Source: Rugalucina vietnamica
Lineage: Eukaryota > Mollusca > Bivalvia > Lucinida > Lucinidae
Assembly (NCBI GenBank): GCA_964017185.1
Contig: OZ024870.1
Span: 36,066,139 to 36,130,138 of the forward strand
DNA: 64,000 nt
Reading direction: 5' to 3'
Under the pieces are notes generated by a model. That model was not told the origin of the DNA and did not search any database. It saw nothing but the letters and a program-made list of their open reading frames with translations. Shown piece by piece: positions 2,219 to 36,008 of this stretch; positions within the stretch are counted from its first letter, which is position 1, and each line of letters starts with the position of its first letter. The position numbers were made by a program, and so were the translations under genes.

Positions 2219-4499
2219 AATTTTTAAACATGGGAATGATTATCAAATAAGATAATGCATAAATTGATAGGTGTTTCCACGTATAAGCATTTTCCCACAC
2301 CCACCCCTCACAAAGGTACATATCCCGGCAAACCTCATAAAAAATGTTTCAAAAATATTTTTAAAGCTGGTTATATATGGATGTTTAGATTCGAAAATTG
2401 CCAATGTGATGATACCAAAATTATTAAATTCTAATAAATATTAGATGCGATATAAGGACCAAACCACCACTTGTCGTACACATTGTCCCAACAATTAGTA
2501 TGCTATAGAAACATTTTAAAAGCTTCAACTTGAATGTAAAAAGTTATTATTTCCCTTTCAATACCGGCTGGATATGTGTCAGATGAGGCATTCTAGTTAG
2601 AGAATTTAAAACATCTGTTCAATTATTAATAATTTTTAAATAAAAAAAGAACAAAAGAAGCAATTTCGATGCATTTTCATTTTCCATTCTTCTTATTTCT
2701 TCTATTGATGGGATGTGCACATTTCTTCAGCCATATGATTTTCATCACAATATGTGTAATCTATATTAAACAATACAAATTTTACAAGAACCAAATAACG
2801 ATAATTCTTGCTTTTCGAGCTCATTACAGTTGTCTTATCGACAGGCCTTAATACTTTTGATTTAGTCCCTGTTTTTTATGTTTTTCTTCTTAGGAAATCC
2901 GAACTTTCCTTTCGGTGTATAGATTTTAGAAAAAAATTGTCTTTTGGGGTTATGAACCAATAGCTCTATATGGTGATGAACTGTATTTTGGCTTTTTCGT
3001 AGATGGCGATTTGAACAGACTCTGGACAACGTCTTGGATTTCCTGTCCACGCCAGAGATATGGTTTTTTGTTCATCAGGTAACGACGCTTGGTTCGTTTC
3101 CCTTTAAATCGACCCATCTGGAAACGTATAAAGCGGAAAACATAAGGTCAGTAGGCGCACCTAGAACTGACGAGGCCAGTTATTCTTCAGCATTAATACA
3201 TGCATTCATTCTACACTTTGCAGTGGACAATCACGTGATCTCGACTTGTTTGAACTAGCGTTTGGGTTTAACCAGCGAGCCAATCGACTGCTGGCAATAT
3301 CTAGAAACATTATGAATCTATTATTCCAACTGCTCGTGACAATGTGATGAAGAGGTACATGCATGTGTAATTTTACACGCCAATTCATCTAGCATTGACA
3401 ATCTTATTATGACCAATGTTTCTAAATATTTCGTCTGAAATTGATATAAACCACGTGATTATTCACCTTTACATATTCAAAGAATTGATATTGAAAAACA
3501 GGAGATAGATTTCATACGAACAACACAATGGACGCTTTGCTTAGTGTTACACCTATAATTGTCGAATCTGCAAGACTGAGCAAGCTCAACATTAAACAGC
3601 AGGGATGTCCTTCAATACTTTTTAAATTTGTCAGTAAATCATTTCAAAATTGCTCAATTTAAGGTCAAATTGACCACCTAGTTTGCAAATTGACCACACT
3701 GTTATTCTAGTGTTTTTTTTTCGAGTCAATGCGAATTATGTACATAAATTCAATGCGTCTTGCATGAGGTAGTATTTGTATTGTTGGGGTTACCAAAAAT
3801 TAGTAATAAATACATCCGATATTGCTAAACTATGTGACTGAATGGTTAATGGACAAACGAAATTGAATTATGAGGATACCGACGGCATTGATTTGGACTT
3901 GGTTGTGTCTAGAATGCATCTCCATTAATGTTGCCGTGTCCCCTAACAGAAAACGACATCAAGTTGCATTTTTTCTGGCTTTCTCTCACGATGAAAATTT
4001 ACATTGTGATCCCCATTGATCAATACGACCACCGCAACTTCAAGTTGACCGCCAGTACAAAATCGATCTAAGTGTTGAAAGGAAAGCTTGAAATATTTTA
4101 AAATTATGTCTGAAAAGCTAATTTAGTGTCAATTTAACTAATTGCAACAACCATTGGTTACAGAAAGCTTGCAAATGCACGATCAGGGCATTTTAACCTG
4201 TGTTTGACCAGATTCTACTTTCGTTTTCACTACCGATCAAACGGGCCGGAAAGGATTGCAGTAAAACGGTTTATTTTTTTCAACTACCACTTCGGCTAGA
4301 CATTCAACGGCAAAAAACTGATAGCCTGACATTCTTTGATTTTTATAATACGTTTTTGATAAAAAAAATATCTTACCTTCCACATCCACCAAACTCGCGA
4401 AAACTTATAACAGGAAACGCTCAAAACGACCACCGGATGTATATCAACTTTTTTTACGTTGACCACCGGCGGTGGTCAATTTGCACTTTACCGGGCGTG
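578..4499. mobile_element. Long-inverted-repeat (foldback) DNA element, non-autonomous
   Basis: Arms 578-1635 and 3439-4499 are near-perfect inverted copies (about 1.06 kb each), ending CACGCCCGGTAAAGTG and its complement. Both ends abut AAGTG (573-577 and 4500-4504), a 5-bp target duplication. The 1.8-kb centre (1636-3438) holds a poly-A tract and no convincing transposase reading frame. The subterminal arms repeat the word GTGGTCAA several times, some as the palindrome GACCACCGGCGGTGGTC, possible transposase-binding sites. The superfamily is unassigned. The element makes up almost all of RANBP2 intron 10: without it the intron would be about 0.3 kb. Confidence 0.85.
2162..2216. repeat. Poly-A tract in the centre of the long-inverted-repeat element
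   Basis: About 55 uninterrupted A residues in AT-rich sequence. They are not followed by an obvious retroelement 3' end, so simple slippage is the likelier origin. Confidence 0.9.
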
Positions 4500-4808: not shown

Positions 4809-6103
4809 TATAGCCCCGCTTCTCAGCTTTTTTGCAGGGTGAAAAAAACAATGACAGGTAACTATCACAAGCTAGATCCCGTCAATATTGATGCGCATAC
4901 AAAATTTGGTCTGATTATGTCAATTCGTTCTCAAGATATTGAGCGGAAACGAAATTCTGACGTCAATCAAGGGCCATAACTCCGTCAAAATTTTGCGAAA
5001 AATGACAGGTAACAATCCCAAGCTAGATCTTGTCAATGATGATGTGCACACAAAATTTGGTCGGATTCTGTCAATTCGTTCTCAAGATATTGAGCAGAAA
5101 CGAAATTCTGACGTCAATCAAGGGCCGTAACTCTGTCAAAATTTTGCGAAAAATGACGGGTAACAATCCCAAGCTAGATCATGTCAATGATAATGTGCAT
5201 ACAAAATTTGGTCGGATTCTGTCAATTCGTTCTCAAGATATTGAGCGGAAACGAAATTCTGATGTCAATTAAGGGCCGTAACTCCGTCAAAATTTTGCGA
5301 AAAATGACGGGTAAGAATCCCAAGCTAGATCTTGTCAATGTTGATGTGCACACAAAATTTGGTCGGATTCTGTCAATTCGTTCTCAATATATTGAGCGGA
5401 AACGAAATTCTGACATCAATCAAGGGCCGTAACTCCGTCAAAATTTTGGGAAAAATGACGGGTAAGGATCCCAAGCTAGATCTTGTCAATGTTGATGTGC
5501 ACACAAAATTTGGTCGGATTCTGTCAATTCGTTCTCAATATATTGAGCGGAAACGAAATTCTGACGTCAATCAAGGGCCATAACTCGGTCAAAATTTTGG
5601 GAAAAATGACTGGTAACAATCCCAAGCTAGATCTTGTCAATGTTGATGTGCACACAAAATTTGGACGGATTCTGTCAATTTGTTCTCAAGATATTGAGCG
5701 GAAACGAAATTCTGACGTCAATCAAGGGCCGTAACTCCGTCAAAATTTTCCGAAAAATGACGGGTAACAATCCCAAGCTAGATCTTGTCAATGATGATGT
5801 GCATACAAAATTTGGTCGGATTCTGTCAATTCGTTCTCAAGATATTGAGCGGAAACGAAATTCTGACATCAATCAAGGGCAGTAACTCTGTCAAAATTTT
5901 GGGAAAAATGACGGTCAACAATCCCAAGCTAGATCTTGTCAATGTTAATGTACATACAAAATTTGGTCAGATTCTGTAAACTGGTTCTCAAGATATTGAG
6001 TGGAAATGAAATTTTGACAGAATAACGGAATAACAGAAGGACAGAACGACGGAAGGACATGGTGAATCCAGTATAGCCCCACTTTTTCAAAGCGGGGCTA
6101 TAA
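4809..6103 (+). mobile_element. Tandem-repeat-bearing hairpin-ended element ('pearl'/Helentron-like) with 151-bp array
   Basis: A left end carrying TATAGCCCCGCTT is followed by about 7.5 copies of a 151-bp unit (about 4860-6010), an ACGGA-rich spacer (6018-6060) and a 3' hairpin with arms TATAGCCCC and GGGGCTATA (6072-6103). Known bivalve 'pearl' elements and Helitron-related HINEs have this plan: unlike termini, central tandem repeats, terminal hairpin. The unit is not a multiple of 3, so the serial short reading frames seen across it rotate and are not coding. It lies in RANBP2 intron 9. No transposition protein is encoded. Confidence 0.75.
4958..5720. promoter_or_regulatory. Array of consensus CRE sites (TGACGTCA) in the 151-bp repeat
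   Basis: Perfect TGACGTCA occurs at 4958-4965, 5109-5116, 5562-5569 and 5713-5720. The three other units read TGATGTCA or TGACATCA, the changes expected from CpG deamination. TGACGTCA is the palindromic CREB/ATF site. The sites are real words in the sequence; regulatory use is inferred only. Confidence 0.5.
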
Positions 6104-10215: not shown

Positions 10216-10339
10216 ATATCTAAAACAACAGATACTATCAGACTATAATACATTTTCAACAGCCTAGGTGACGACTGCTTTGTTGAGATGCATTATTCTA
10301 GAATCAGATTTTTTCAAGCAAAAAAAAAAGTTTTCTTAC

Positions 10340-10399
10340 CTTTAGCTTGAAAACTGTGAAATGATTGGGATAGTATTTCTCAGCCAACTCAACCCAAAA
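10340..10399 (-). CDS. RANBP2: RANBP2 exon 5
   Basis: Acceptor TTTGTTTCAG lies before base 10399 and donor GTAAGAAAA after base 10340. The 60 bp encode FWVELAEKYYPNHFTVFKLK (codons 118-137), phase 0 at both ends, matching RanBP2 KYWVERAAKLFPGSPAIYKL. It sits between MITE copies 6 and 7, which are inverted relative to each other. Confidence 0.9.
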
Positions 10400-10444
10400 C
10401 TGAAACAAAAATAGGTACTGTCTGATGTTTGAAAACAAACATAT

Positions 10445-10678
10445 GAGCTAATGCGTGAGAAAACCAACAATTTGGGTTTCCACCAGGTCAGACACAAACC
10501 AGGCTGTACAGTCACAGAAGATGGCTAGAGGCTGGAAATTTTGTATTTAGAAAGTAGAGCAATTGTACTATCCGTGTAGCGAAAACAAAGGCGCTGGTCA
10601 GCTTTGCAGTAACTGCGAAGCTGATCTGCGCCTTTGTTTTCGCCTATGCAGATTGTTCGTTTTCCCATGCGGCGGCTC
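10445..10678 (-). mobile_element. GAGCC-family MITE, copy 7
   Basis: Reverse-oriented copy, ATAT on both sides, 45 bp upstream of the exon 5 acceptor. Confidence 0.9.
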
Positions 10679-10730
10679 ATATTAAACTTTGATAGATAAC
10701 CATATAAGACTCTTGAGCTTGATACAAATA

Positions 10731-11774
10731 CACTGAAAAAAAGTTATAAGAGGCCACCTCATATTTTGTCTTCTAGTTCAGAAAGTAAAATACGATCAAT
10801 TAAAATTCATGATCATATGAATAAACCAATGTCTAACAGTGGCTCTGTGAGTTTCTGCATTCCAAAATGCGTGATACTTCTCACACAGACGAAGCATGTG
10901 TAAAGGTACCCTATTTCGCAAAGTCACACTTTATTAACATCAAATTAAATGTCATATTATGACGTTGTGTTTTTACATTTTAATTTATTTGAAAGTGCTA
11001 CTGACTGCCATGATGCAAGATAAAATTAAGTCAAAAGTGTTGCTGCAATAAGAATCTTCGTTTCTGTTTTGCACATGCAAGAAGACAACAACCTGAATAA
11101 CAGGAATTCAGCTTTTGTATGCAATTTGCATACCAACTTTGTTCTTCTCCAGTTGCGTTATTATCAGCAGCACGGCATTGAAATTTTCAGCGATTATTTA
11201 GGTCAAATACTAGACTCTGATAAACTTTGAAAATTAAAAAAATCGTCCATAAATTTTGTTATTTTGTTCGTTAAAAATTGGCATTGAAACCGGAAGTGTG
11301 CGGCAGCCTTGACATGTTGGTCCTCGAAAATGGTCAAAAACAGTTCAGTCGAATTATATCTCTCATTTCCAGGCCTCATCAAGTGAATTTAACAGGGGTC
11401 AACATGTTTAAGAGGCACATTTATGAATTTTTCAAAAAATCTCAAAATTGGCGATTTTTAAAAATGCATAAAAATTCTACCAGTAGAGAAAATTCGAATG
11501 TTTGATGTTTTTCCGAGCCGTAACGACCCCTTTGATGACACCCGTTCCTAATTTCAATAAATGGTGTGCTGTATCCAATTTTTTATTTAAAAACATTGAT
11601 TTTTGCATTTTTACTCCAAAAACGCCTTTATTAAAAGAAAATTATTTCTTAACACTTTGGAACTTTACTTACTTGAAAGACACGTCTTTTGGCAAAAAAT
11701 TGTGCAATTTTGAACTTGGCTTAGAAACAAAAAATGAGTTTGAAAAGTGGCCTCTTTATAACTTGGTTTCAGTG
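10731..11774. mobile_element. 1.04-kb TIR element with TA duplication, non-autonomous
   Basis: Inverted ends CACTGAAA...GTTATAAGAGGCCAC and GTGGCCTC...TAACTTGGTTTCAGTG, each next to TA, as in Tc1/mariner-type insertions (other superfamilies are possible). Short ORFs at 11278-11780 resemble nothing known and are not preserved in the relative at 49092-50061, so no coding capacity is claimed. It lies in RANBP2 intron 4. Confidence 0.75.
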
Positions 11775-11943
11775 TATTGAAGTAATTGCAGCAAAAGTTA
11801 AGAGAACAAGAAAAGAATCCGATGCTACCAAATAAACAAGGTCTCCATATTTAATACAGGGTCACATAATAGCAGTAAAAATAAAACAAAAATTATTTCA
11901 CATAGACTCAAATTACAACCTAAAACTACAAGTATTCATATTT

Positions 11944-12178
11944 GAGCCGCATCGTGAGAAAACGGGATTATTGCCTATGCGAAAACAAAGGCGCAGATCA
12001 GCTTCGCGGTAACCGCGAAGCTGATCAGCGCCTTTGTTTTCGCTACTCGGATAGTACAATTCCTCTTCTACTTAAATCCGAAATTTCAAGCTTCTAGCTC
12101 TTTTCTGAGCTGGTACAGGTCGGTTTGTGTCGGACCTGGTCGGAAACCCCGAAGACCGGTTTTCTCGCGTTGCGGCTC
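11944..12178 (+). mobile_element. GAGCC-family MITE, copy 8
   Basis: Full-length copy with ATTT duplicated on both sides; its sequence is very close to copy 4. Confidence 0.9.
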
Positions 12179-12224
12179 ATTTTACAATTTGAAAAAATAA
12201 TAAGCCAAATGGAGGAGAACAAAC

Positions 12225-12277
12225 CTTGGCATGATCTCTGTTCACTGGTACTGTAGGATCACCATACAATTCACAAA
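12225..12277 (-). CDS. RANBP2: RANBP2 exon 4
   Basis: Acceptor ATTGTAG lies before base 12277 and donor GTTTGTTC after base 12225. The first two bases complete a Val codon from exon 3 and codons 101-117 read CELYGDPTVPVNRDHAK, ending in phase 0. This acceptor was chosen because an earlier AG would bring an in-frame stop; the result aligns with RanBP2 IAELLCKNDVTDGRAK. Confidence 0.82.
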
Positions 12278-12366
12278 CTACAATATAATCACAAACGAAC
12301 TTTACAAGACCGTAGAGCATCTTTTGAGATTTTAAGTTAACATTAACAACAAATCTAAATCTATAT

Positions 12367-12601
12367 GAGCCTGTGCGTGAGAAAACCAACAATTTGGGTT
12401 TATGACCAGGTCTGGCACAAACCAGGCTGTACAGTCACAGAAGATGGTTAGAGGCTGGAAATTTTGGATTTAGAAAGTAGAGGAATAGTACTATCCGTGT
12501 AGCAAAAACAAAGACGCTGATCAGCTTCGCAGTTACTGCGAAGCTGATCTGCGCCTTAGTTTTTGCCTATGCAGATTGCTGATTTTCCCATGGGGTGGCT
12601 C
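12367..12601 (-). mobile_element. GAGCC-family MITE, copy 9
   Basis: Reverse-oriented copy. Flanks are ATAT and AATT, so no exact duplication remains. Confidence 0.87.
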
Positions 12602-12832
12602 AATTATGATTTGTTGGGAAAACACTAAGCTTGGTAGGAAAGAAACAGATATGCTTTTAAATTTATATTTTAAAACAATCCACATTTTAGATGAAAATAG
12701 CAAAAACATCAATTAGTTTAGCAGCAGTTGGATGTACCCTAAATCAATTTCTTTTATACAGATTTGTGTTAGAGTCTTAGAGATTTTAATTTCTAATCAA
12801 ACTGTATTTTATTATGACAATGAATGAATCAC

Positions 12833-12990
12833 CTTTCAATATAATGTCTTTTTGTTCTGAGTCCAGATCTAAGGATCTCTTGTAGGCCTCTACAGCATAC
12901 TGTTTGTCTCTCAATGCCTCGTAGATCTGTCCTAACAACTTGTGGGCCTGGGGAACTGTCTCACGAACACTCAAAAATGCCTGGACATAT
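12833..12990 (-). CDS. RANBP2: RANBP2 exon 3 (TPR motif)
   Basis: Acceptor TAATATAG lies before base 12990 and donor GTGATTCA after base 12833. The first base completes an Arg codon; codons 48-99 include VPQAHKLLGQIYEALRDKQY and AVEAYKRSLDLDSEQKD, a clear TPR matching the RanBP2 TPR (AHRFLGLLYE... KAVECYRRSVELNPTQKD). It leaves in phase 1. This is the strongest family signal in the gene. Confidence 0.93.
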
Positions 12991-13079
12991 CTATATTAAA
13001 ACAGAAAATGTAAAATGCATTTTGTCAATATCTAAAGTTAACAAAAACATAACCTTCAATGTTCAATTTTAGGATAAAT

Positions 13080-13314
13080 GAGCCTCCTCATAAGAAAATC
13101 ATCAGTCTGCATATGTGAAAAACAAAGGTGCAGATCAGCTTCGTGGTAAACATGAAGCTGATCAGTCCCTTTGTTTTCGCTAGATGGATAGTACACTTCC
13201 TCTTCTTGTTAAATCCGAAATTTCAAGCGTCTAGCCTGCTTCTATGACTGTACAGTCTGATTTGTATTGGACCTGTTCGGAAACCACATCATTGGTTTCC
13301 TCACTAGACGGCTC
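13080..13314 (+). mobile_element. GAGCC-family MITE, copy 10
   Basis: Full-length but more diverged copy; flanks AAAT and AATT do not match exactly. Confidence 0.85.
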
Positions 13315-13377
13315 AATTATACAGTAACACACATACACTTATCTGATCTAATAGGCATACATGTACACATGTATCTG

Positions 13378-13466
13378 AGGCCGACCATAAAAAAAATGTT
13401 GGTTTGCTGTGCTCCTACCTACCCGCCAAAATTGGCCCTACCCAAAACAATTTATGGCCATTTTGA

Positions 13467-13497
<31 letters not shown>

Positions 13498-13747
13498 CAA
13501 AAATCTAAAAACAAGGATTCATTTTCACAAAATTATTCTTTCCAAAACCTTTTTTATATTCTGACAATGTTTTATTATACTGTTTTAATTTCAATATATC
13601 CTATTTTGAACCATATACATCTACTAATATAGCAAATTATAAAGACATTTTTCTGGTTCAAAAAAAAAAAAAATGACCTACCTGCCTACCCACACTAAAA
13701 TTGATGGGTAGGAGCACAGCAAACAAAGAATCATCTAAGGATGGCCT
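13378..13747. mobile_element. 370-bp TIR MITE with poly-T/poly-A interior
   Basis: Left end AGGCCGACCAT and TTTGCTGTGCTCCTACC are mirrored by GGTAGGAGCACAGCAAA and ATGGCCT at the right. The interior includes a 27-nt T run (13471-13497). It lies in RANBP2 intron 2. No target duplication could be defined. Confidence 0.7.
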
Positions 13748-14137
13748 GATAGAGAAAGCAATCCAATAAGCACAACTGACTGATCAGACAAGACTGTATT
13801 GATGCACAAGACTGTATTGATGCACATGCACACGAGTCACTGTCAAATTGCAGCTCAGGCTATATTGGTCATATTGATGGTTTTACTACAGTGCAGTACC
13901 AGTAATTAAAATTATTTCTGCATCAATTATAAGTGGTTCTGTTTCAATAAAAAAAAGTTCTCTGTATTGCATCCATGGGCAAGTTTCTGTTATACAACAG
14001 GTCTTTATGAAGAAATTAGCAAAATTGTTCTGCTCATTTCTTCCTAAAGACATTACATATCATCAATTGTCACCAAATACTCCCATAATCTGTAAAATAA
14101 ATTATAATAAATTATAATTAATAATAAATATACATAC

Positions 14138-14205
14138 CTTTTTCCAGATTCATAGTCTCCCACATCATAGTACAGCTTGGCAAACTGAAATCCTCTTGAA
14201 TTTCT
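14138..14205 (-). CDS. RANBP2: RANBP2 exon 2
   Basis: Acceptor GTTTTAG lies before base 14205 and donor GTATGTA after base 14138. The 68 bp encode RNSRGFQFAKLYYDVGDY then ESGK (codons 25-46), ending in phase 2, and match RanBP2 KSMKGFYFAKLYYEAKEYDL. Intron 1, upstream, is 7.4 kb of nested repeats. Confidence 0.92.
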
Positions 14206-15529: not shown

Positions 15530-16691
15530 GTGCCTTGAGAGGCACGTATACCCCCGGCTGGTAGCTGTCCCTTCACCCCCCCCCCACCCAATCCCCCCAC
15601 CCCCACACACACACACCCACCTTCCCACCGCCCCCAATCCAGACATTGCTACTGAAACTAACACATTGAACCTAAATTTCCAAATAAAAGAGAGCACCCT
15701 CAACAAAAGCACTGTCTAAAACCATTGGGAGTGTAGTAGAATGACAGATCTATTTTAAAGCAGTATACAGAGCTGACTTGTATACTCAATCTAGGACTTG
15801 ATCGCGGACATTGAGGGTCAGGTCCTCGGTCCTAGATGGAAAATAGAATGTCATTCTTCAATAATATTAATAAAAAAAAAATAAAAAATATACAATGTTC
15901 TAGATTTTGACCTCTAGCCCCACCCATGGCATGACCCTAGAGTCTTACGTCAATAGGAACAATTCATACCTTATAGAGTACCTATGGTGTAAGTATGAAT
16001 GATTTCTAAACATGGTGGTAAAGAAAAGTACATAAAATATAATTTTTAAAGAAGTTCTAGATTTTGACCTCTAGCCCCACCCCCCACACATGGACCCTAG
16101 AGTCTGAACCTTACATGGTACCTATTGTCTAAGTATGAATCCCTTCTGACAAGACATTGTGGATGTCAAGAAAATGGACTTACAGAAAATTTATCATGGT
16201 ATCTATCATATTATAAATGTGTCCTAGATTTTGACCTCTAGCCCCACCCCTGGGGATGGTACCGAGGATTTGGTGACATGGAATATGAAAGCAAACCCTA
16301 TAGTGTATTCATAAACTAAATCCCTATGATTGTTTGTTAAGATATGGACTTAGAGAAGAAACATTAACATTGTAAATAGCACATTTTAAAGGTGACCTAG
16401 ATTTTGACCTCCAGCCCCACCCCCGGGCATGGACCCTGGGGTCCGAACTCATGGAAATGAAGCAAACCCTATAGGGTACCTATGGTCCAAATATGAATGG
16501 TTTCTGACCATTGGTTCATGAGATATACACCTCTAGAGAAACTTTAACCAAAACTTTGACGTAAATTCCACGAACGTTCCGGAATTACGAACGAAGAAAC
16601 GAACTAACTAACTAACTAACTAACTAACATACGAACGGACAAACGGAAAAGCGAAAACTATATACCCGTCGGCATAAATGCCGGGGGTATA
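15530..16691 (+). mobile_element. Hairpin-ended tandem-repeat element (Helentron/'pearl'-like), type 2 termini
   Basis: A 5' hairpin (GTGCCT/AGGCAC, 15530-15545) runs into TATACCCCCGGC. Next come about five diverged units each starting near GTTCTAGATTTTGACCTC, then a CTAACTAACTAA run with an ACGAACGGAC spacer, and a 3' hairpin with arms TATACCCGTCGGCA and TGCCGGGGGTATA. The 5' word is the complement of the 3' arm. It is noncoding. The same internal unit is found in the element at 17109-19510 under different termini. Confidence 0.75.
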
Positions 16692-17108
16692 AAAAAATTT
16701 TTTGTACAAGTTTTGAAAATATCTTTAGATCGTAATCATTTCTTCAACTCAAGGTATGAGCCCCTTAATATTTCTAGCAAATTATGATTTTATAAGCATC
16801 TCAAAATTACCATGGATCGACCATTCGATCAAACGCCTTATTAGGAAATGTGTAAAAATGTACTTCCGGCAGAAAGTCAAGCAGTCCTGACATTAAGAAC
16901 CATTACAAACGGTTCAGAGCACATGTACAGAAAGCCATCAGAGATGCATATTGGAAACATATTTCCAATATCTTCTCCTTTGAAACTGATGACAATGGTC
17001 CCGATTGCCCAGAGAAAAAATGAAAAATGTAAAAGGTTTTGGTCATTTGTTAAGTCCCTCAAAAAAGACGAGTCAGGGATCACTTCACTAAGAGAAAACG
17101 GAATTCTA

Positions 17109-19510
17109 ATAAGAGCTGTCGCAGGACAGCGTGCTCGACTGCTTCTGACCTTTGTCAAACATAAGGCCAAACCCGACTAGTAACCCAAAGCATTATGCTC
17201 ATACATCTTTTTGCCTTGATGCAATAAGGCAAAATCACTGAACCATGAAAGTTAACTATAACTACCTAAGATTTAAAGGTCTCACTCATATTGTGAAAGA
17301 AGTGTGTTCATATACCAACTGAGTGCCAAGACACAAGGCAAAATCACTGAACCGTGAAATAAGGTCACACTGACCTATAAGTATTTCAGGGTCAAAGCCT
17401 CAAAGGTCTACTTACTCATAATGTGAAAGAAATCTGATCATATACCCATTCAATGTTGAGATATAAAGCAAAATCACTGAACCATGAAATTAGGTCATAG
17501 TGACCTATAAGTATGTTTGGGTTCAAGGTCTGGTCATACTCATTCATAATCAGAAAGAAGTATGAAAAATACCAACTGAGTGTTGAAATATAAAGCAAAA
17601 TCACTGAACCATGAAATTAGGTCACAGTGACCCAGGAATACTTTACGGTCAAAGGTCTTGTCATACTCATACATATCGTGAAAGAAATATGTTCATATAC
17701 CAATTGAGTGCCGAGATATAAAGGAAAATCACTGAACTGTGAAATTAGGTCATATTGACCTAGGACTACTTTAGGTTCAAAGGTCTTGTCATACGCAAAC
17801 ATAGTGTGAAAGAAGTTTGTTCATAAACTACTTAAGTGCCGAGATATAAGGCAAAGTCACTGAACCGTGAAATTAGGTCACAGTGACCTATAAGTATATT
17901 GGGGTCAAAGGTCTGGTCATACTCACTCATAATCTGAAAAAAGTATGAAAATATTCTAATTGAGTGTCAAGATATAAGGCAAAATCACTGAACCGTGAAA
18001 TTAGGTCACAGAGACCTAGGACTACTTCAGGGTCAAAGGTCTTGTCATACGCAAACATACTTTGAAAGAAGTTTGTTCATAAACCATTTGAGTATCGAGA
18101 TATAAGGCAAAATCACTGAACCGTGAAATTAGGTCACAGTGACCTATAAGTATATTGGGGTCAAAGGTCTGGTCATACTCACTCATAATCTGAAAAAAGT
18201 ATGAAATTATACTAAATGAGTGTCAAGATATAAGGTAAAATCACTGAGGCGTGAAATTAGGTCACAGTGACCTAGGACTAATTCAGGGTCAAAGGTCTTG
18301 TCATACGCAAACATACTTTGAAAGAAGTTTGTTCATAAACCATTTGAGAACTGAGATATAAGGCAAAATCACTGAACCGTGAAATTAGGTCACAGTGACC
18401 TATAAGTATATTGGGGTCAAAGGTCTGGTCATACTCACTCATAATCTGAAAAAAGTATGAAAATATACTAATTGAGTGTCAAGATATAAGGCAAAATCAC
18501 TGAACCGTGAAATTAGGTCACAGTGACCTATAAGTATATCGGGGTCAAAGGCCTGGTCGTACTAACTCATAATCTGAAAGAAGTAAGAAAATATACTAAT
18601 TGAGTGTCAAGATATAAGCCAAAATCACTGAACCATGGAAAGTAGGTCAACCGACCCTTACCGTCATGACACACAAGTCAGTGTCATAAAGTCAAAAGAT
18701 GAATGACCAACCATCTTCCTAAGTTGTTTCTATTAAGAAATAAAAAGAAAAAAAAATTGGGGAGTTCTAGATTTTGACCTCTAGCCCCGACCCAGAGGTC
18801 CGATGTCATGGAACCTAAAGTGTATGAAGTATGAATGCTTTATGATAAGTTGTTGTCAAGATATGGACTCCTTGTAAAAGTTACACAGCAGTACATCTAT
18901 TTTTGACAGTGTTCTAGTTTTTAACCTCTAGCCCCACCCCCCAGGCATGGACCGAGAGACCCGATGCCATTAAATGAAACTCAACCCTACAGGGTACCTA
19001 TGGTCCGAGTATGAAAGCCCTCTGATAAAAAGTTTTCAAGATATAGACTTCTAGAATACTATATCACAAAAAAGCCATTATTATTAATGGTGTTCTAGAT
19101 TTTAACCTCTAGCCCCACCCCCTGGCATGGACCCAGGGATCTGATGCCATGGAATGAAAGCCGACCCTACAGGGTGTCAATGGCCCAAGTATCAATGCTT
19201 TCTGATGAGTGGTTGTCAAGATATGGACTTCTAGAAAACTTTAACACAAGAATTGTCATTTTTGAAGGTGTTCTAGATTTTAACCTCCAGCCCCACCCCC
19301 TGGCCTGGACCCAGGGGCCCGATGCCATGGAATGAAAGCTAACCCTACAGGGTATCTATGGTCCAAGTATGAATGCTTTCTGATGAGTGGTTGTCAAGAT
19401 ATGGACTTCTAGAAAACTTTAACGCAAGTGTGACGCGCACGCGCACGCGCACGGGAACGTGGACGACCGAGGTGACTGCAATAGCTCTATGCACTTCGTG
19501 CAGTCGAGCT
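17109..19510 (-). mobile_element. Helentron/'pearl'-like element with two tandem arrays, inserted in the LINE
   Basis: Read on the minus strand it starts AGCTCGACTGCACGAAGTGC and GAGCTATTGCAGTCACC, and ends CGCTGTCCTGCGACAGCTC-TTAT. These are the same termini as the element at 29746-30399, so the two belong to one family. It sits between A/A (T/T on its own strand), the target choice known for Helentrons. Inside are a 128-bp array (about 17230-18640) and a second array (about 18755-19430) of roughly 170-bp units related to those at 15530-16691. No protein is encoded. Confidence 0.8.
17362..18529. promoter_or_regulatory. Ten-unit array with consensus estrogen-response elements (IR3) and DR1-like sites
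   Basis: AGGTCAnnnTGACCT is perfect at 17362, 17492, 17746, 17875, 18131, 18259, 18387 and 18515; the 13-bp core is intact at 17619 and one unit (about 18003) is mutated. Spacing is 127-130 bp. Most have spacer CAG, giving the exact vitellogenin A2-type ERE. Many units also carry GGGTCAAAGGTCT, a near-consensus DR1. Binding and activity are inferred. Confidence 0.6.
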
Positions 19511-21590
19511 AAAAACCAACATGGTTGATAAGGCAAACATCTGCAATAAACAATTTCAGTCGGCATTTACGCGTGAGACTGATTCTGAAATTCCCTCCAA
19601 AGGCACAAGCCCTTTTACCCCCATGCCAGGGTGAAATCAAGGTTGACCCTAAAGGGGTCCTCAAACTGCTGAATGGGCTAAAGGTTCACAAGGCACCTGG
19701 GCCAGACGGCCTGAGTGCTAGGGCATTAAAAGAATGTAGTTCTGAAATTGCCCCCATCTTGGCATTTATCTACAATGAGTCGCTTGCTCAGGGAACTGTA
19801 CCAGATGATTGGCGACAGGCAAATGTGGCCCCGGTGTATAAGAAAGGTGAGACATATGATGCAGCTAATTACAGACCGGTGTTGCTAACTTGCATCTGCT
19901 GCAAAACCTTAGAGCATATTATAGTCAGCAACATAAATAAGCATCTTTCCCTTGAAAATATTTTTGCTGACGTACAGAATGGTTTCCGTAGTCAGAGGTC
20001 TTGCGAGACCCAGCTGGTTCAGTTCTTTCACGACATGGTTAGTAACCTGGATCGAGCCCAGAACCGGGGTCAAAGACAAACGGATGTGATCATCATGGAT
20101 TTTGCAAAGGCCTTTGACAAGGTACCACACAAGAGGTTATTATACAAACTGCAATACTACGGGATTAGAGGATCTACTCACAAGTGGATCGCTTCATGGC
20201 TCTCTGAGCGCTATCAAAAAGTGGTGTTAGATGGCCAAGCCTCAGATCCAGTCCCGGTCTTATCTGGAGTCCCCCAAGGATCGGTCTTGGGACCAGTCCT
20301 TTTCTTGATATTTATTAACAACCTTCCGGACAATATCAGGTCATCTGTTTGTCTTTTTGCAGACGATTGTGTTTTGTATACGAACATAAATTCACTCACT
20401 GATTGCCAAATCCTACAAGAAGACCTGAATAGCCTTGCTTAATGGGAGACCGATTGGCAAATGAAATTCAACGTTGCCAAATGTCACTCAGTGGGGGTGA
20501 CCCGGCACCTCCCTAGCAATCAAATACATTTCAGCTACTCTCTACATCAGCAAACTCTGGAACAGGTTCGATCCGCCAAATACCTTGGACTTACTATCAC
20601 TGACGACTTGGAATGGGGTCAACATACTTCAGAAATTTCTTGTAAAGCAACTAAGAATGACCGTGAGGGCATATGGCAGTATAAAGAGATAGATAGACAT
20701 TGGGTTTTCTTCGGCGCAATTTGGCTCTTGCACCTCGGCACACAAATGAAGTTGCATACAAAACATTGGTTCGTCCTCAGCTTGAGTATGCAGCTCCTAT
20801 TTGGCATCCCTATAATGAAACTGAGACAAAAAAGGTGGAGAAAGTGCAGAAGACAGCAGCCAGGTGGACCTGCAGGCGATGGCGTAATAGGAGTAGCGTC
20901 GATGATATGTTGGACGAACTCGAGTGGCCATCTCTGGAGGACCGCAGGGTGAAGTCTTCCTTAACTTTCTTTTACAAGATTCACTCCGGTACAGTGTCTC
21001 TTGATAAAGATAGATATCTGACTCCGGCACCCAACTTAAGAAGTACCAGGGCATCTCAGACTCATAATTCACAATACACAAGATATTTGTCCTATACTGA
21101 AAACTGATCCTCTGAAGAATTCTTTTTCCCCCGAGGACTATCCCTTTATGGAATAGTCTTCCCTCTTCAGTGGTCTCATCAAAGACTGCTGAAGAATTTA
21201 AGGCTCTCATTTAGATCAGGGGTTCAGAGGTATATGTTTTAGTATGCCTCTGTTTAGCTTCTTGTAAATAGTTTTAATGGCCCATCCCGAATGTTCTCCT
21301 CGTCTTCCAAAATTTCAAAATTTAGCACCCACCCAACACCTGAGATGATGATCAGAAATTGATTGACTCAGTATATGAAGATAGATAGATTTTCGGTCGA
21401 AAAGAATAGTTTTTCGTGGAACAAATTTTGAAAAGCTAAAACTTGTACAAAGAAAAAAACACGAAGAAAGCAGCATTTAAACATGTTCTGTGATTGTTTG
21501 TTTGTTTGTTTTCCTGTTACTCCCATCAATCAATTTCTGATTATTCTTGGGAGGTGTACATTGTACACTCCGGTGTGTTTGCAGGATTAC

Positions 21591-21662
21591 CTCCTTTTCG
21601 TCCCTTATTTTATTAAGGATATGGGACACATGTCTGTCTACGTCTCGTTTTGTCTTGAACAT
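21591..21662 (-). CDS. RANBP2: RANBP2 exon 1 (start codon)
   Basis: ATG at 21662-21660 opens 24 codons, MFKTKRDVDRHVSHILNKIR then DEKE, ending in phase 0 at donor GTAATCCTG. RanBP2 starts with a comparable MxxSKADVERYI sequence, and exon 2 continues in frame. The frame stays open into the intron, but nothing beyond the donor resembles the family. Confidence 0.85.
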
Positions 21663-28836: not shown

Positions 28837-29738
28837 GTAAGTTATCTTTCGATATTGGTTGCTAATATTTTCCCCAATTATTTTCTGTCATGTTGACGAA
28901 GTTTCCGTCCTAAAATCGAATATTACGATATATTTAGTTAGAAACTTTGAAATGGTATCATTGTAGTTACTCCGAATCACGTTTAACCGCATACTGTCAT
29001 TTTATGCTCTCAAAGGACTTGTATTGTTTGATGTTTGTAACTAAAGGTATATTTTTACATTCTATGTATTTATATTATAAAATTAAGGGTAAACTATGAA
29101 ATAATCTGCGTTTTTAACAAGCATCATATACTATTCCGACGTTATTCAGATCACCCTTGGTAAATCGTGTGTTCGGTGGGGGTGGGGTTGAGCAAACATG
29201 GCTATGGGAAAATGACGCCGAAAAAGGCACATGTTTTGGTCCTCGTAATATTTCATAAGGTTCACTGTATGACTACATGCAAAGAATTTGAAGAATAAAC
29301 CCATCGGTGGTGATATATAGTCCATGATTCGGATTACCTCCAACTGATCCGCATTGACTTCAACTATGCATATACTTTCACGCTCCAGTGGTCACAGTCG
29401 CGCGCTTGATCAAAAATGAAAAGCATTACAGATGATGAGGAACAAAAATGGCTTCAAGATAATTCTGAGTTTATTATACTCAAATCATTCATATGCGCAT
29501 GCGCAGCAATTTTCATGAACTTGATCCGGAATGGGTAGAATAATTGTATATATGTTTTCGTTTTTCGGCGAAGTCATGTATCAGATGTTTCTAACGATTC
29601 GGGGTGCCGTGCGGGGTTCTTTCAGGGCTACGCTTGATGTAGCCCCTGTCTTTGTTCATGTCGTCTCACGACCAGGATGGGGAGCTTGGAGATGTCCCCC
29701 CCCCCCCCACCACCACCACCACTACCACCAACACCTCG
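28837..29738. other. Intron or intergenic, no gene seen
   Basis: AT-rich sequence with no convincing frame or recognised element; it ends in a C run and CCACCACCAC simple sequence (29697-29737) directly before the duplicated unit. Confidence 0.5.
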
Positions 29739-29745
29739 TTTTTTT

Positions 29746-30399
29746 AGCTCGCCTGTACGAAAGTACAGGAAGAGCTATTGCAGTCACCCCGGCGTCGGCG
29801 TCGGCGTTGGCGTTAGCGTTAGCGTCGGCGTCGGCGTTGCTCAAAATGTTAAAGTTTTTGGTTAAAGTTTTTATGAGTCTATATCTCTTGAAGTTGTAGA
29901 TGGATCAAGTTGATACTTTGCATGTTGGTAGATATTGGTCTGAAGATTTCTGCTGAACCATCATGACCCACCTGGGTGACCTTGAGGTCAAGGTCACGGA
30001 CTTAGAAATTTTGTGTTAAAGTTTTTGGTTAAAGTTTTTATGAGTCTATATCTCTTGAAGTTGTTGATGGATCAAGTTGATACTTTGCATGTTGGTAGAT
30101 ATTGGTCTGACATTTTATTCTGTACCATCATGACCCACCTGGGTGACCTTGAGGTCAAGGTTACGGACTTAGAAGTTTTGTTTTAGAGTTTTTTGTTAAT
30201 GTTTTTATAAGTCTATATCTCTTGGATATATAGATGGATCAAGTTGATACTTTGCATGTTGGTAGATATTGGTCTGAAGTTTTATGCTGTCACGACCCAC
30301 CTGAGTGACATTGAGGTCAAGGTCTTTGGTCATAGATTTAATAGATTTAGTGGCAAAGCACAAGTCAGGCGAGCTACGCTGTCCTGCGACAGCTCTTAT
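29746..30399 (+). mobile_element. Helentron/'pearl'-like element, unit 1 copy
   Basis: Starts AGCTCGCCTGTACGAAAGTA (5' hairpin CCTGTAC/GTACAGG) then GAGCTATTGCAGTCACC and a GGCGTC/GGCGTTA microsatellite. It holds three units of about 167 bp and ends with the hairpin CGCTGTCCTGCGACAGC and CTCTTAT between T and T. Units carry GTGACCTTGA-GG-TCAAGGTCAC. Same family as 17109-19510 but with a different tandem array. The microsatellite produces a spurious Ala-rich ORF. Confidence 0.82.
29976..29997. promoter_or_regulatory. Paired ERR/SF-1-type half-sites in the element's repeat unit
   Basis: Perfect 10-bp arms GTGACCTTGA and TCAAGGTCAC are separated by two bases. TCAAGGTCA is the extended half-site recognised by ERR and NR5A receptors. 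A slightly altered copy occurs in the next unit (near 30143), and both recur in unit 2. Function is inferred. Confidence 0.4.
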
Positions 30400-30544
30400 T
30401 TTCTTTGGTGTTAATCTAGATTATCTAGATTTATCCGGTGGCATCTTCGACCTCTGATAATTGATAACTGTAATGTGCGAATTGCATGAACAAAGTGAAC
30501 ACAACCGTTAATTCTCATAGGTATTAAAAAAGCTACTGGTACAG

Positions 30545-30845
30545 AACAGATACGTCGCAGATAAGAATGGAACGTAGTACATACGCCGTAGATACGTCAC
30601 GCGTACACTTCATACGCCATACATACGTCACACGTACGTAGCACATACGCATTGATACGCCGTACATACGACAGTGAAATTCCGTACGAATACAGATACG
30701 TCACGGATACGCCACGGGAACGTAACAGGAACGTCACACGTACGTGGTACATACGTCGCTCGAGCAAAATACGGCTCAGACCTCGGCGTATCGAAATTTT
30801 CATAGATACGTGAGCGATACGCCGCTGATACGCGAATGTTTGACA
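30545..30845. mobile_element. CpG-rich TACG-word element 4, unit 1 copy
   Basis: Dense in ATACGTC, GTACG and GATACGCC. Its right end (ATACGCGAATGTTTGACAG) is the reverse of the left end of the element at 27240. Present again at about 35267-35567. Confidence 0.55.
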
Positions 30846-31078
30846 GAACTATAAGATTACTGTTTAGCGCGATCTTATTGAAAATGGCGGGATTAAGATG
30901 ATCGTAGAATTCCGCGAACTTTGAATTCTTCTAACTTTTTAGTGACCGTACAAAAGTAAGCATTAATTATTGAAGCTTTATAAATTACCTTTAATTCAAC
31001 CGCAGGGTTTAAAAATTGTTAATGGCAAGCACTTGAAGTGGTATTTCGATAGAGGCCTTTGTCATTTAGGCCTATGAT

Positions 31079-31115
<37 letters not shown>

Positions 31116-31128
31116 CTACAACTACAAC
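31079..31128. repeat. CAA microsatellite
   Basis: About 13 CAA units followed by CTACAACTACAACAG; in unit 2 (35800-35841) it is three units shorter, the clearest difference between the two copies. Confidence 0.95.
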
Positions 31129-31295
31129 AGTAAACAGCGATCTTAAAGATTGTGGTATTCGACGAGTGTCCCTGACTGAATAGTTTGGACTCCCCACTTT
31201 TGTCTTTCATGAGGCATCATTGCTTATAGGCTGTTTCTTATAAAATAGAAAGACTGTCAGGCTTTATAATTTTGCTCTCATTTCAGACTTTTGTC

Positions 31296-33065
31296 ATGGC
31301 AACATCAACCGAGAACATCATCGTGTCAACTGCAACAGACGTAAACGGCGTACATCGGGCTTCATCATCTACACACACGGTCGTTACTAGGACTTACCCT
31401 ACATCACCATCGTCGCCTAGCAACAACGTTGGTGACGGAAACGATGGTCCAAGCTGGGGACTCATAATACCAATTTTATTGATCGGTCTGTTCTTGGTTT
31501 GTGTGGCGTTTTGTCTGTACTGGCACAAGTGGCGCGACAAGAGGCCCGCGGGGGACCAAACTGGACCCAACGCTGCACTATCGTTCCAACGTAGTTACAG
31601 GGGAAGTAAATCTAACCGTGGGATGGACACTATGCGGGATTCAACCAGATCCACAACGCCGCTAAGAAGTAGCGTTAGATCTAATGAAAAAATAAAAGCC
31701 AAACAAAATAGTTTCAAAGTGACTAACGTAAATGTTATTCCAGTTCAGAGGCCGTCGACCGGCAAGTGCTCATTCTACTGGGACCAGAATCACTGGAAAG
31801 TTTGCCCCTACCCCGCTACTATGACGGCATCTCGGCACAGTGGATCGCGTCCTCTGTCTCCTATAACGGAGGTTGATTCTCCAAATAAACTGTCGGAACT
31901 GTCCAGAAATTATGACGTTAGCGCACAACCGTCAGATTTTTCACCGTACCATTTAACGTGGATAACGCCGAATCCACCTCCGTCGTATGAACAGTCTGAA
32001 TCAAGATGTGTGCAAAACCAGAGCGGCTGTCCGATACAAGTTATAGCAGCAGGCGCGCATCATGGTGTCGACCATTTGCAGAGCTATCAACAGTGCAAGA
32101 ACTCCCCGTTCTACCCCAACAATAACACGCCGACCACGGAATGTGACGCCGAGTCCGTCAATGACGAGGGTTCTCAGATACGGTTCATTGACGATATTGC
32201 GAGTTCACAGTATACGAGCTACCCTGCAAGTTCAACTATGTCAAGGTCGAATCCCGGCTTCTCTGCCAGTCCCGATAGTGACAACAGAAGCACGTCGATG
32301 GCGTCATCGTACCCAGAAACATCATACCAACCGTCATCGCATCAAAGTGAGCGTATGTCGGGATATCATAACTCGGGAATGACGTCGTTGAGCGAAGCAT
32401 ACGGCGAGAACATGAGCCTTCCCAGTAGCATTTCACAGTTCCAGCAGCAAGCTACGGTCATTGAAGATCCGAACAACAATAGTATCGTTGTGCCGAACTC
32501 TTACCTATCATTTCCTGCAGTCAAGGGCCTGAACTACACCCTGGCTAGCAGTCTGGAATCATCAGAGAGCACCCGCTATTCTGACAACACCTCTATGCTT
32601 CCGAACGTTGGGAGTAGTAGTAATACAACTGGAGTTCAGTCTTCTTACGGGCTCCGATCTCTGCCGTTAAGTAACGACCATAGCGGCAACGTCAGTCAAG
32701 AGGACCTATCGAACCTAGTAGACGAAATGTCATCCATTCGACCTAATTCGTCAGCAGAACCAACAGCACGCGTAATCAGCATATCTGGGCAGAGTTTTGC
32801 TGTAGATTCTCATCAATGTGTTATTCCTGAGGAGGGACCCGTTTCAGCGAGCTCGACGAACGAGGTTTCGTTTCTCTGGGACAATTTTCCTCTAAATGAG
32901 GAACCGATTATGGTGCGTTCGAATCCCGAACTGCCCCTACACGATAGAGATCAGCAGTTGTACAGGAAACAAACTCTCGAACGCTCTCCGAGGAAATCCC
33001 TCGAGCGCTCACACAGAATGTCGTTCCAAGTGCCGGTCTTGAGTGAGAAACAATACTGGGTCTGA
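31296..33065 (+). CDS. Single-pass membrane protein with PPxY and PDZ-ligand motifs, copy 1
   Basis: Long intact frame; ATG at 31296 (G at -3 and +4) gives 589 aa. The upstream CTCTCATTTCAG is a strong acceptor ending at 31286, so this is probably the main coding exon behind a 5' exon. No signal peptide is seen. A Ser/Thr-rich N-terminus (1-53) is followed by one hydrophobic helix at about 55-75 (LIIPILLIGLFLVCVAFCLY) with basic HKWRDKR after it, suggesting outside N-terminus and cytoplasmic tail. The ~510-residue tail is Ser-rich and probably disordered. It has NPPPSYEQ, a PPxY ligand for WW domains as in Nedd4-type ligases, and ends EKQYWV, a class II PDZ ligand. The family is not recognised. 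Function is open; an adaptor or scaffold role is a guess. Confidence 0.8.
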   Translation: MATSTENIIVSTATDVNGVHRASSSTHTVVTRTYPTSPSSPSNNVGDGNDGPSWGLIIPILLIGLFLVCVAFCLYWHKWRDKRPAGDQTGPNAALSFQRSYRGSKSNRGMDTMRDSTRSTTPLRSSVRSNEKIKAKQNSFKVTNVNVIPVQRPSTGKCSFYWDQNHWKVCPYPATMTASRHSGSRPLSPITEVDSPNKLSELSRNYDVSAQPSDFSPYHLTWITPNPPPSYEQSESRCVQNQSGCPIQVIAAGAHHGVDHLQSYQQCKNSPFYPNNNTPTTECDAESVNDEGSQIRFIDDIASSQYTSYPASSTMSRSNPGFSASPDSDNRSTSMASSYPETSYQPSSHQSERMSGYHNSGMTSLSEAYGENMSLPSSISQFQQQATVIEDPNNNSIVVPNSYLSFPAVKGLNYTLASSLESSESTRYSDNTSMLPNVGSSSNTTGVQSSYGLRSLPLSNDHSGNVSQEDLSNLVDEMSSIRPNSSAEPTARVISISGQSFAVDSHQCVIPEEGPVSASSTNEVSFLWDNFPLNEEPIMVRSNPELPLHDRDQQLYRKQTLERSPRKSLERSHRMSFQVPVLSEKQYWV

Positions 33066-33910: not shown

Positions 33911-34309
33911 AACCGCACATTTACAATGATTTATTTCCTCCATTTACGGCTGTTGTTCAGGTTTATCTGTTGAGCCGTTGGGTTTGGTTTGGCCATAGCT
34001 TGATCAACAATCTTTCAGTCATATCGGGATGCCGTCGCTCCCTTAACCAGTGCGATGGGGGTGGGGGGTGTGGGGCTTCAAGTGTCGTGGCTCTTAGGCT
34101 ATGAAGGATGCAACACGATGGGGGTAGGTATGCAACCGAGCACCCTCACTTAACTTGAAGGCTTGGATGTGAGCATATAGTATGTTTTCCCCCATCGAGA
34201 AAACATGTCCACGAATGTCGAATTTTTTCTGCTGATTTTTTTTTTTTATTTTACAGCATTAAACATTATTGAATATTGTATGGGCACGTTTTCGTAATTT
34301 GCGTTCATA

Positions 34310-34392
34310 TGCTCAAGATTTGGCTCCACCCCGACATGACTGAAAATTTGTTGACTGGGAAAATAACCCTTATCCGAAACAAACAAAACAAT
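34310..34392 (+). mobile_element. SINE family A, 3' fragment (unit 1)
   Basis: CCCGACATGACTGAAAATTT and TTGACTGGGAAAATAACCCT with a CAAACAAA tail; repeated at 39021-39103 in unit 2. Confidence 0.6.
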
Positions 34393-34467
34393 ATGGACTG
34401 TTTGAAGTCTTGGAGCATCGATGGACATGGAAGTAAACCAACAATCTGATTTTGTAGAAGTTTTTTT

Positions 34468-35121
34468 AGCTCGCCTGTACGAAAGTACAGGAAGAGCTAT
34501 TGCAGTCACCCCGGCGTCGGCGTCGGCGTTGGCGTTAGCGTTAGCGTCGGCGTCGGCGTTGCTCAAAATGTTAAAGTTTTTGGTTAAAGTTTTTATGAGT
34601 CTATATCTCTTGAAGTTGTAGATGGATCAAGTTGATACTTTGCATGTTGGTAGATATTGGTCTGAAGATTTCTGCTGAACCATCATGACCCACCTGGGTG
34701 ACCTTGAGGTCAAGGTCACGGACTTAGAAATTTTGTGTTAAAGTTTTTGGTTAAAGTTTTTATGAGTCTATATCTCTTGAAGTTGTTGATGGATCAAGTT
34801 GATACTTTGCATGTTGGTAGATATTGGTCTGACATTTTATTCTGTACCATCATGACCCACCTGGGTGACCTTGAGGTCAAGGTTACGGACTTAGAAGTTT
34901 TGTTTTAGAGTTTTTTGTTAATGTTTTTATAAGTCTATATCTCTTGGATATATAGATGGATCAAGTTGATACTTTGCATGTTGGTAGATATTGGTCTGAA
35001 GTTTTATGCTGTCACGACCCACCTGAGTGACATTGAGGTCAAGGTCTTTGGTCATAGATTTAATAGATTTAGTGGCAAAGCACAAGTCAGGCGAGCTACG
35101 CTGTCCTGCGACAGCTCTTAT
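34468..35121 (+). mobile_element. Helentron/'pearl'-like element, unit 2 copy
   Basis: Same sequence as 29746-30399. It lies between the two gene copies and could supply regulatory sequence to the second, which has no copy of the candidate first exon. Confidence 0.82.
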
Positions 35122-36008
35122 TTTCTTTGGTGTTAATCTAGATTATCTAGATTTATCCGGTGGCATCTTCGACCTCTGATAATTGATAACTGTAATGTGC
35201 GAATTGCATGAACAAAGTGAACACAACCGTTAATTCTCATAGGTATTAAAAAAGCTACTGGTACAGAACAGATACGTCGCAGATAAGAATGGAACGTAGT
35301 ACATACGCCGTAGATACGTCACGCGTACACTTCATACGCCATACATACGTCACACGTACGTAGCACATACGCATTGATACGCCGTACATACGACAGTGAA
35401 ATTCCGTACGAATACAGATACGTCACGGATACGCCACGGGAACGTAACAGGAACGTCACACGTACGTGGTACATACGTCGCTCGAGCAAAATACGGCTCA
35501 GACCTCGGCGTATCGAAATTTTCATAGATACGTGAGCGATACGCCGCTGATACGCGAATGTTTGACAGAACTATAAGATTACTGTTTAGCGCGATCTTAT
35601 TGAAAATGGCGGGATTAAGATGATCGTAGAATTCCGCGAACTTTGAATTCTTCTAACTTTTTAGTGACCGTACAAAAGTAAGCATTAATTATTGAAGCTT
35701 TATAAATTACCTTTAATTCAACCGCAGGGTTTAAAAATTGTTAATGGCAAGCACTTGAAGTGGTATTTCGATAGAGGCCTTTGTCATTTAGGCCTATGAT
35801 ACAACAACAACAACAACAACAACAACAACTACAACTACAACAGTAAACAGCGATCTTAAAGATTGTGGTATTCGACGAGTGTCCCTGACTGAATAGTTTG
35901 GACTCCCCACTTTTGTCTTTCATGAGGCATCATTGCTTATAGGCTGTTTCTTATAAAATAGAAAGACTGTCAGGCTTTATAATTTTGCTCTCATTTCAGA
36001 CTTTTGTC

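Follow-up and report, generated by a model that had tools for sequence, protein, structure and literature searches.

The window, by which we mean the whole 64,000-nucleotide stretch of the Rugalucina vietnamica genome analyzed here, holds a mobile element inserted into the remains of another, probably within the first intron of a RANBP2-like gene (Table 1). The RANBP2-like exons were located with a human fragment as the query, and their matches on the minus strand are of unequal strength (12992-12834, E = 1e-11; 14205-14131, E = 9e-5; 10402-10328, weak, E = 0.02). Since, read along the minus strand, the element is preceded by an exon-1-like start (21662) and followed by these exons, we place the element in RANBP2 intron 1, as the initial annotation had done; the exon matches uphold that location, while exon 1, judged by eye, leaves it at probable. 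When the LINE flanks on either side of the element are joined, they run in frame over the junction (..LRENGILKTNMVDKANICNKQFQSAFTRE..) until a stop some 40 codons further on. This frame is kept by joining the flanks without removing any duplicate, indicating that a target-site duplication is absent at this insertion; by eye, it is absent in other copies of the element too.

Table 1. Features of the element, of its insertion site and of the surrounding gene (positions in the window)
Feature	Position	Strand	Basis
RANBP2-like N-terminal exons	10328..14205	-	tblastn
Decayed LINE (RVT_1) split by the HINE	16845..20442	+	profile match and joined flanks
Complete non-autonomous Helentron (HINE), 2,403 bp	17108..19510	-	ends common to 12 complete copies
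HINE 3' end: subTIR GCAGTCGAGC, palindrome GCTGTCctgcGACAGC, terminus CTCTTATT	17108..17145	-	copy comparison
Second tandem array, 128-bp unit, 10.7 copies	17281..18649	-	tandem-repeat finding
Ten IR3 (estrogen-response-element-type) sites, 8 perfect and 2 altered	17362..18529	-	motif scan
DR1-like motif or degenerate form after each IR3	17390..18555	+	reading and motif scan
First tandem array, unit of about 178 bp, 3.4 copies	18827..19428	-	tandem-repeat finding
Degenerate CG-rich microsatellite-like stretch (CGCACG repeats) within the 5' end	19429..19469	-	by eye
HINE 5' end: subTIR AGCTCGACTGC and complementary inverted repeat (..GCATAGAGCTATTGCAGTC)	19470..19510	-	copy comparison
Probable RANBP2 exon 1 (MFKTKRDVDRHVSHILNKIRDEKE..), start 21662	21591..21662	-	motif scan, judged by eye

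Several other features lie elsewhere in the window. The segments 29525-33065 and 34246-37778, spaced by about 4.7 kb, form a duplication that carries the same 611-aa open frame twice, along with 167-bp repeats, and that represents either a gene duplication or a haplotype duplication of the assembly; the frame of the first copy had no Pfam match and contains, by eye, a hydrophobic stretch. An inverted repeat of about 840 bp (578-1418 and 3658-4499, 96-97% complementary) has some 2.2 kb between its arms, and a tandem array of a 151-bp unit (7.7 copies, 93% matches) occupies 4850-6018. On the minus strand, a fragment at 40602-40907 matches Amidase_2 (E = 4e-6) and is presumably PGRP-like.

By its sequence, the inserted element, which contains two satellite arrays, belongs to the non-autonomous Helentrons (HINEs), and the Helentron-like identity first given to it is borne out by its subTIRs, the palindrome at its 3' end, insertion at T-rich sites and flanks that differ between copies. 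The HINE extends on the minus strand from 19510 (5' end) to 17108 (3' end) and reads, from 5' to 3', subTIR, inverted repeat, microsatellite, 178-bp array, 128-bp array, 3' subTIR, palindrome and CTCTTATT. The ends were established from 12 complete copies, 11 of them from loci in the first 2.7 Mb of contig C1 and the twelfth being the window copy, with up to 4 substitutions allowed in the end search. The subTIRs AGCTCGACTGC (5') and GCAGTCGAGC (3') characterize these copies, an exact match being missed in some of them, for example in the 5' subTIR of L008 and L009 and in the 3' subTIR of L007. An inverted repeat beside the 5' subTIR (..GAGCTATTGCAGTC) and a palindrome after the 3' subTIR (GCTGTCCTGCGACAGC, with one base altered in copy L006) complete the termini. 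The flanks of the 12 copies all differ, except those of L008 and L009, which are a duplicate pair; the 5' flank of 9 copies ends in a run of at least five T, and that of the other 3 in TTTTTATT.

A further sample, drawn independently of the receptor-type motif described below and referred to here as the seed sample, comprised 20 loci with exact 3'-end matches, all on C1, picked among the 100 matches listed; because only exact 3'-end matches entered, it favors well-kept copies. Of these 20 copies, 14 show both ends when 6 and 5 substitutions are tolerated; the 5' flank of 11 ends in at least five T and that of 3 in ATTT, TATT or AATT. Copy length, determined for 25 copies, falls into two main groups, 6 copies at 2,139-2,183 bp and 14 at 2,360-2,475 bp, that differ by about two 128-bp units, with 5 copies elsewhere (2,306 to 4,325 bp). 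Judged by the mean pairwise divergence of its unique 3' segment (2.8%, 31 copies), the HINE family is young. The element has no coding capacity of its own: the sole stop-to-stop open reading frame of at least 100 aa reaching into it is the LINE overlap at its 3' edge (16845-17180). Rfam gave no match at the gathering threshold, the tRNA search found none, and a scan of IMG/VR with GAAATTAGGTCAnnnTGACCTA returned 0 matches. A second HINE-like remnant was recognized by eye at 15885-16700, where repeats of family D19, akin to those of the 178-bp array, accompany an AACT microsatellite and a palindromic end.

Each of ten units of the second array, which is also detected at a 256-bp period, holds one perfect or altered copy of AGGTCAnnnTGACCT, an inverted repeat with a 3-bp spacer (IR3) that corresponds to the consensus of the estrogen response element (ERE). 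Eight copies are perfect, starting at 17362, 17492, 17747, 17875, 18131, 18259, 18387 and 18515; the copy at 17619 (AGGTCACAGTGACCC) has one mismatch and an intact 13-bp core, and that at 18003 (AGGTCACAGAGACCT) is a mutated form, also with one mismatch. Distances between successive sites are 130 bp, 127 bp and then seven times 128 bp. The ten-unit ERE array of the initial annotation, with its spacing of 127-130 bp, was recovered at the positions given there, and CAG is indeed the most frequent spacer: five of the eight perfect sites have it, as do seven of the full set of ten. When two mismatches are tolerated, the window contains 16 IR3 matches, the 10 of the array and 6 outside it, against a mean of 2.02 (sd 1.63, maximum 6) in 100 dinucleotide-preserving shuffles of the window. 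The half-site RGKTCA occurs 4 times in the commonest unit class versus 0.22 times in shuffles, an 18-fold excess, and AGGTCA is somewhat overrepresented in the window outside the array as well (48 versus 26 expected, rank 10 of 180 letter permutations), which counts against the receptor reading proposed below.

A DR1-like motif in many units had been described too. The motif GGGTCAAAGGTCT does occur, with 5 exact occurrences in the window array and an exact form in 92 of 162 sampled units, where it is the commonest form, but its second half-site is imperfect, and the perfect DR1 (AGGTCANAGGTCA), the element of the RXR/HNF4 type, occurs 0 times in the window array. DR1 as a property of the HINE was rejected, the motif being an imperfect DR1 and the one cluster of perfect DR1 that we read belonging to another repeat. 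Genome-wide, the DR1-like RGGTCAAAGGTCW is found 25,698 times (control, 197), a count that takes in this second repeat too.

Scanning of the 1.09-Gb genome (47 contigs) yielded 22,978 perfect IR3, compared with 20 for the reversed motif. The same palindrome with a 4-bp spacer (IR4) is found 260 times (control, 25), and the glucocorticoid-type (GRE-type) IR3 118 times (control, 125). HINE ends number 2,853 on the 3' side (32-base pattern) and 3,933 on the 5' side, both counted with at most 3 mismatches and each with a reversed control of 0, and a block of the 128-bp unit that adjoins IR3 occurs 33,479 times (up to 2 mismatches; control, 0). Among the matches listed, 10 of the 11 loci covering IR3 places hold the HINE, L013 being the one with IR3 and no HINE. 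The 20 seed-sampled loci contain 130 IR3, and since this density multiplied by 2,853 3' ends amounts to about 18,500 of the 22,978 sites, we estimate that the HINE supplies most, not all, of the perfect IR3 in the genome. The spread of predicted nuclear-receptor sites by a mobile satellite, put forward at the outset as an inference, thus holds as a fact of sequence.

How well IR3 is kept relative to the rest of the unit had been singled out as the decisive comparison, and its outcome was mixed. Our first tests (arms, 7/1,210, versus 180/11,384) were replaced by the seed sample because their loci had been chosen by IR3. Full units were obtained from 17 of the 20 seed-sampled loci (L060, L062 and L063 gave none), and 127 of these 160 units carry a perfect IR3, leaving 33 without it. 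Under an alternative filter that retained 162 units, the arms are perfect in 129 and include an inherited TGACCC arm in 15, and the spacer is CAG in 105, TAT in 17, TAG in 16, CAC in 15 and something else in 9. The non-consensus fraction in seed-sampled units is 0.017 in the arms, 0.119 elsewhere and 0.23, 0.01 and 0.24 across the spacer. When IR3 is set among the 112 same-shaped frames of the unit, it ranks second in conservation; the median frame is perfect in a fraction of 0.26 of units, and the frame with the most perfect units falls in the adjoining block of about 24 bp, ATTTCAyGGTTCAGTGATTTTGCC. The arms are therefore much better conserved than the spacer, their 5' neighbors and most of the unit, but not better than this block, and we rejected the idea that IR3 alone is conserved: with a neighboring block that equals it, the receptor site is not alone in being constrained. 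Excluded from these conservation counts were L001-L004 (which overlap L005), L009 (with the flanks of L008) and partial units.

Differences between unit classes and singleton mutations, the latter taken as post-insertion changes, were counted on the seed sample pooled with the IR3-picked loci. The seven main classes, which take in 243 of the 263 units after those outside the classes were dropped, differ from one another at just 1 of the 12 arm positions, at 2 of the 3 in the spacer and at 45 of the remaining 112 (Fisher p = 0.03). The lone arm change, A to G, produces GGGTCA, itself a usable half-site, so that an RGGTCA half-site is kept. Singletons fall in the arms at 16/2,914, in the spacer at 6/728, in the neighboring block at 32/5,097 and in the rest of the unit at 161/20,123, with 35/4,361 in the unique 3' segment for comparison. 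At the main threshold, the arms are thus not clearly depleted relative to the rest (p = 0.17) or to the neighboring block (p = 0.76); tighter clustering, which drops more units (243, 215 and 188 of the 263 in the successive rounds), gives p = 0.08 and 0.0015 for arms versus rest. Two apparent arm depletions seen with CpG sites omitted, 18/1,941 versus 293/17,200 (p = 0.008) and 18/2,671 versus 214/15,409 (p = 0.0015), were dropped as evidence of host selection because these counts mix inherited subfamily differences, the singleton-only comparison at the main threshold being the one with p = 0.17. Since arm singletons lack a clear depletion, they make no case for host-level selection. Our reading is that the source array would be under constraint or homogenization, followed by near-neutral decay after insertion; homogenization of units could mimic constraint.

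The genome offers a candidate receptor for such sites. The zf-C4 profile has 75 matches in it, and DNA-binding domains that we take, from their signatures, to be HNF4-, COUP-TF- and ERR-like are present. Two exons, at C4:6684950 and C4:6684082, make up a predicted estrogen receptor (ER) DNA-binding domain; when joined, they find their best PDB matches in AncSR1, the ancestral steroid receptor, and in ER, ahead of ERR. The P-box of this domain is CEGCKA, which a study of mollusc receptors gives as the ER P-box (PMC2529310), and the genome thus encodes a predicted ER DNA-binding domain with an ERE-specific P-box. In the passages concerned, the same study reports ERE binding and constitutive activity for the ERs of Aplysia, Octopus and Thais and adds that none of the mollusc ERs known by 2008 bound estradiol, and that the electrophoretic mobility shift assay (EMSA) probe used for these receptors contains AGGTCACAGTGACCT (PMC2529310). 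As a separate observation, the first finger of zf-C4 (model positions 2-25) is matched nine times at C4:30355688-30361521, mostly in open frames of 32 aa, with one run of seven matches and another of two and 82-bp spacing in each; the region looks like a minisatellite built from the first-zinc-finger exon of a nuclear receptor. Rolling-circle transposases are likewise at hand, since Helitron_like_N has 150 matches scored of 409 candidates, many of them in open frames some 2,600 aa long. Among the exact HINE 5' ends listed, none lies, by eye, within 15 kb of any of the 12 Rep matches found on C1 below 72.3 Mb.

Considering these data, we propose that a non-autonomous HINE scattered IR3 through the genome and that the arms were preserved in its source array because a host receptor binds them, an explanation to which we give about an even chance of being right. 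In this scenario, Rep-helicases of the genome's Helentrons would act in trans to copy the HINE by rolling-circle transposition. The arms would stay intact between diverging units of the source array through the binding of a host nuclear receptor, most likely ER, which may act in the cells where the HINE moves and keep the HINE open or transcribed there. Because inserted copies decay without clear constraint, most sites would be by-products of receptor binding rather than host enhancers, although the host could co-opt a minority of them. That a receptor binds IR3, that such binding is selected for and that the host makes any use of the sites stand as inferences from these patterns.

The same abundance could also have arisen with no receptor acting in vivo, had IR3 been present by chance in the founder repeat of a young satellite that was subsequently amplified and homogenized. 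We take this as a serious possibility, albeit one that falls short of an even chance. The low divergence of the family (2.8%), the equal conservation of the neighboring block, the lack of a clear depletion of post-insertion mutations in the arms and the 33 of 160 full units without a perfect site, partly through the inherited TGACCC class (15/162), all agree with such a passenger role. A passenger would less readily explain why unit classes vary at 45/112 other positions and 2/3 spacer positions but at only 1/12 arm positions, with an arm change that leaves a valid half-site, why half-sites stand 18-fold above shuffles in the commonest unit class, or why receptor half-sites also crowd a single locus of an unrelated satellite in this genome.

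Two further explanations assign the conserved letters to other users. IR3 and its neighboring block make one conserved composite stretch per unit, and rolling-circle replicons often use tandem Rep-binding iterons, so the stretch could be an iteron-like Rep site of the HINE machinery or have another structural role in rolling-circle replication. We consider this very unlikely: the match to a receptor consensus, the variable spacer letters and the fixed 3-bp spacing would better fit a receptor dimer, and, in the portions of the oyster study that describe them, HINE families have central repeats that are unrelated to one another, even where the flanks are related, which argues that no single repeat is needed for transposition (PMC7492417). 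Alternatively, the host itself may have kept the arrays by selection as estrogen-receptor enhancers, including one for RANBP2. The probable intronic position in RANBP2 speaks for such co-option, as do precedents outlined for the MSL sites of a Helentron-type element in Drosophila miranda (PMC4067079, PMC9301316) and for ER sites of mammalian retrotransposons (PMC7145552). Nevertheless, the sampled copies display no clear post-insertion constraint, and insertion into a decayed LINE would give no hint of function, and we hold host co-option of the arrays to be highly improbable.

The unrelated satellite lies at C1:3085200-3086800 (L066). It has 146- and 258-bp periods and carries 42 RGGTCA half-sites, all on one strand, with neighboring half-sites spaced as DR1 (13), DR3 (10) and DR0 (5); blastn against the HINE gave 12-21-bp matches only, with E values of 0.14 or worse. 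Genome-wide, the perfect DR1 AGGTCAnAGGTCA occurs 8,325 times (control, 111). On account of this DR-type satellite, one such locus, we raise the speculation, on balance unlikely, that at least two unrelated satellites independently became receptor-site arrays, the HINE with IR3 and L066 with DR0/DR3/DR1, repeatedly exploiting host receptors. Host nuclear receptors, ER among them, would then be used as an amplification or chromatin-opening device. If true, this would leave genome-wide receptor sinks and raw enhancers behind, and the target repertoire of a constitutive invertebrate ER would be written mainly by transposons.

The HINE with its IR3 array provides a directly testable case in two respects, namely, which sites are bound by an invertebrate ER that is constitutive and does not bind estrogen, and whether a transposon spreads better for carrying receptor sites. 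From the counts, a search of this genome for estrogen-responsive genes by motif would be expected to return mostly HINE.

In its architecture, the window HINE resembles Cg_HINE of Crassostrea gigas, which is described as having a 5' subTIR with a complementary inverted repeat, a microsatellite, one or two central satellite arrays and, on the 3' side, a subTIR and a palindrome, with insertion at oligo-T sites (PMC7492417). The likeness, drawn from that description, extends to the Pearl family (PMC7492417), and the features of the window HINE also match the account of DINE-1/HINE elements (PMC4067079). Monomers of Cg_HINE average 140-180 bp, compared with 128 and 178 bp in the window HINE; the portions describing the oyster repeats mention no receptor sites (PMC7492417), in contrast to the array found here. 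The terms "estrogen," "nuclear receptor" and "transcription factor" have 0 occurrences in the main text of a later satellitome paper (PMC8268682), and among the matches listed from the open-licence literature, searched through titles and the beginnings of abstracts, none reported receptor sites in an invertebrate HINE or satellite.

Other genomes provide analogies for the spread itself. The DINE-1/HINE-like element of D. miranda is also a Helentron-type spreader of sites for a host complex, in that case MSL, but a function in dosage compensation is reported for it in the accounts as excerpted (PMC4067079, PMC9301316), whereas the sites described here are predicted ones of the nuclear-receptor type in an array of about 8-10 units. 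The mammalian L2/MIR and ERV1 retrotransposons (PMC7145552) and Alu (PMC9301316) are likewise presented, in the relevant sections, as mobile elements that disperse ER sites or EREs; they belong to other classes of elements, and here the sites form an internal tandem array of full-consensus sequences in a DNA transposon. Snake Z chromosomes show a similarly unusual accumulation of EREs, which the excerpted account places along the sex chromosome without tying it to a mobile element (PMC8303610), unlike the HINE-borne sites in this genome. In conclusion, HINEs with satellite arrays and transposons that spread transcription factor sites were already known, and what appears to be new, against the papers listed, is a DNA transposon that carries full-consensus EREs as an array, within a genome that contains about 23,000 EREs and encodes a predicted ER with the matching P-box.
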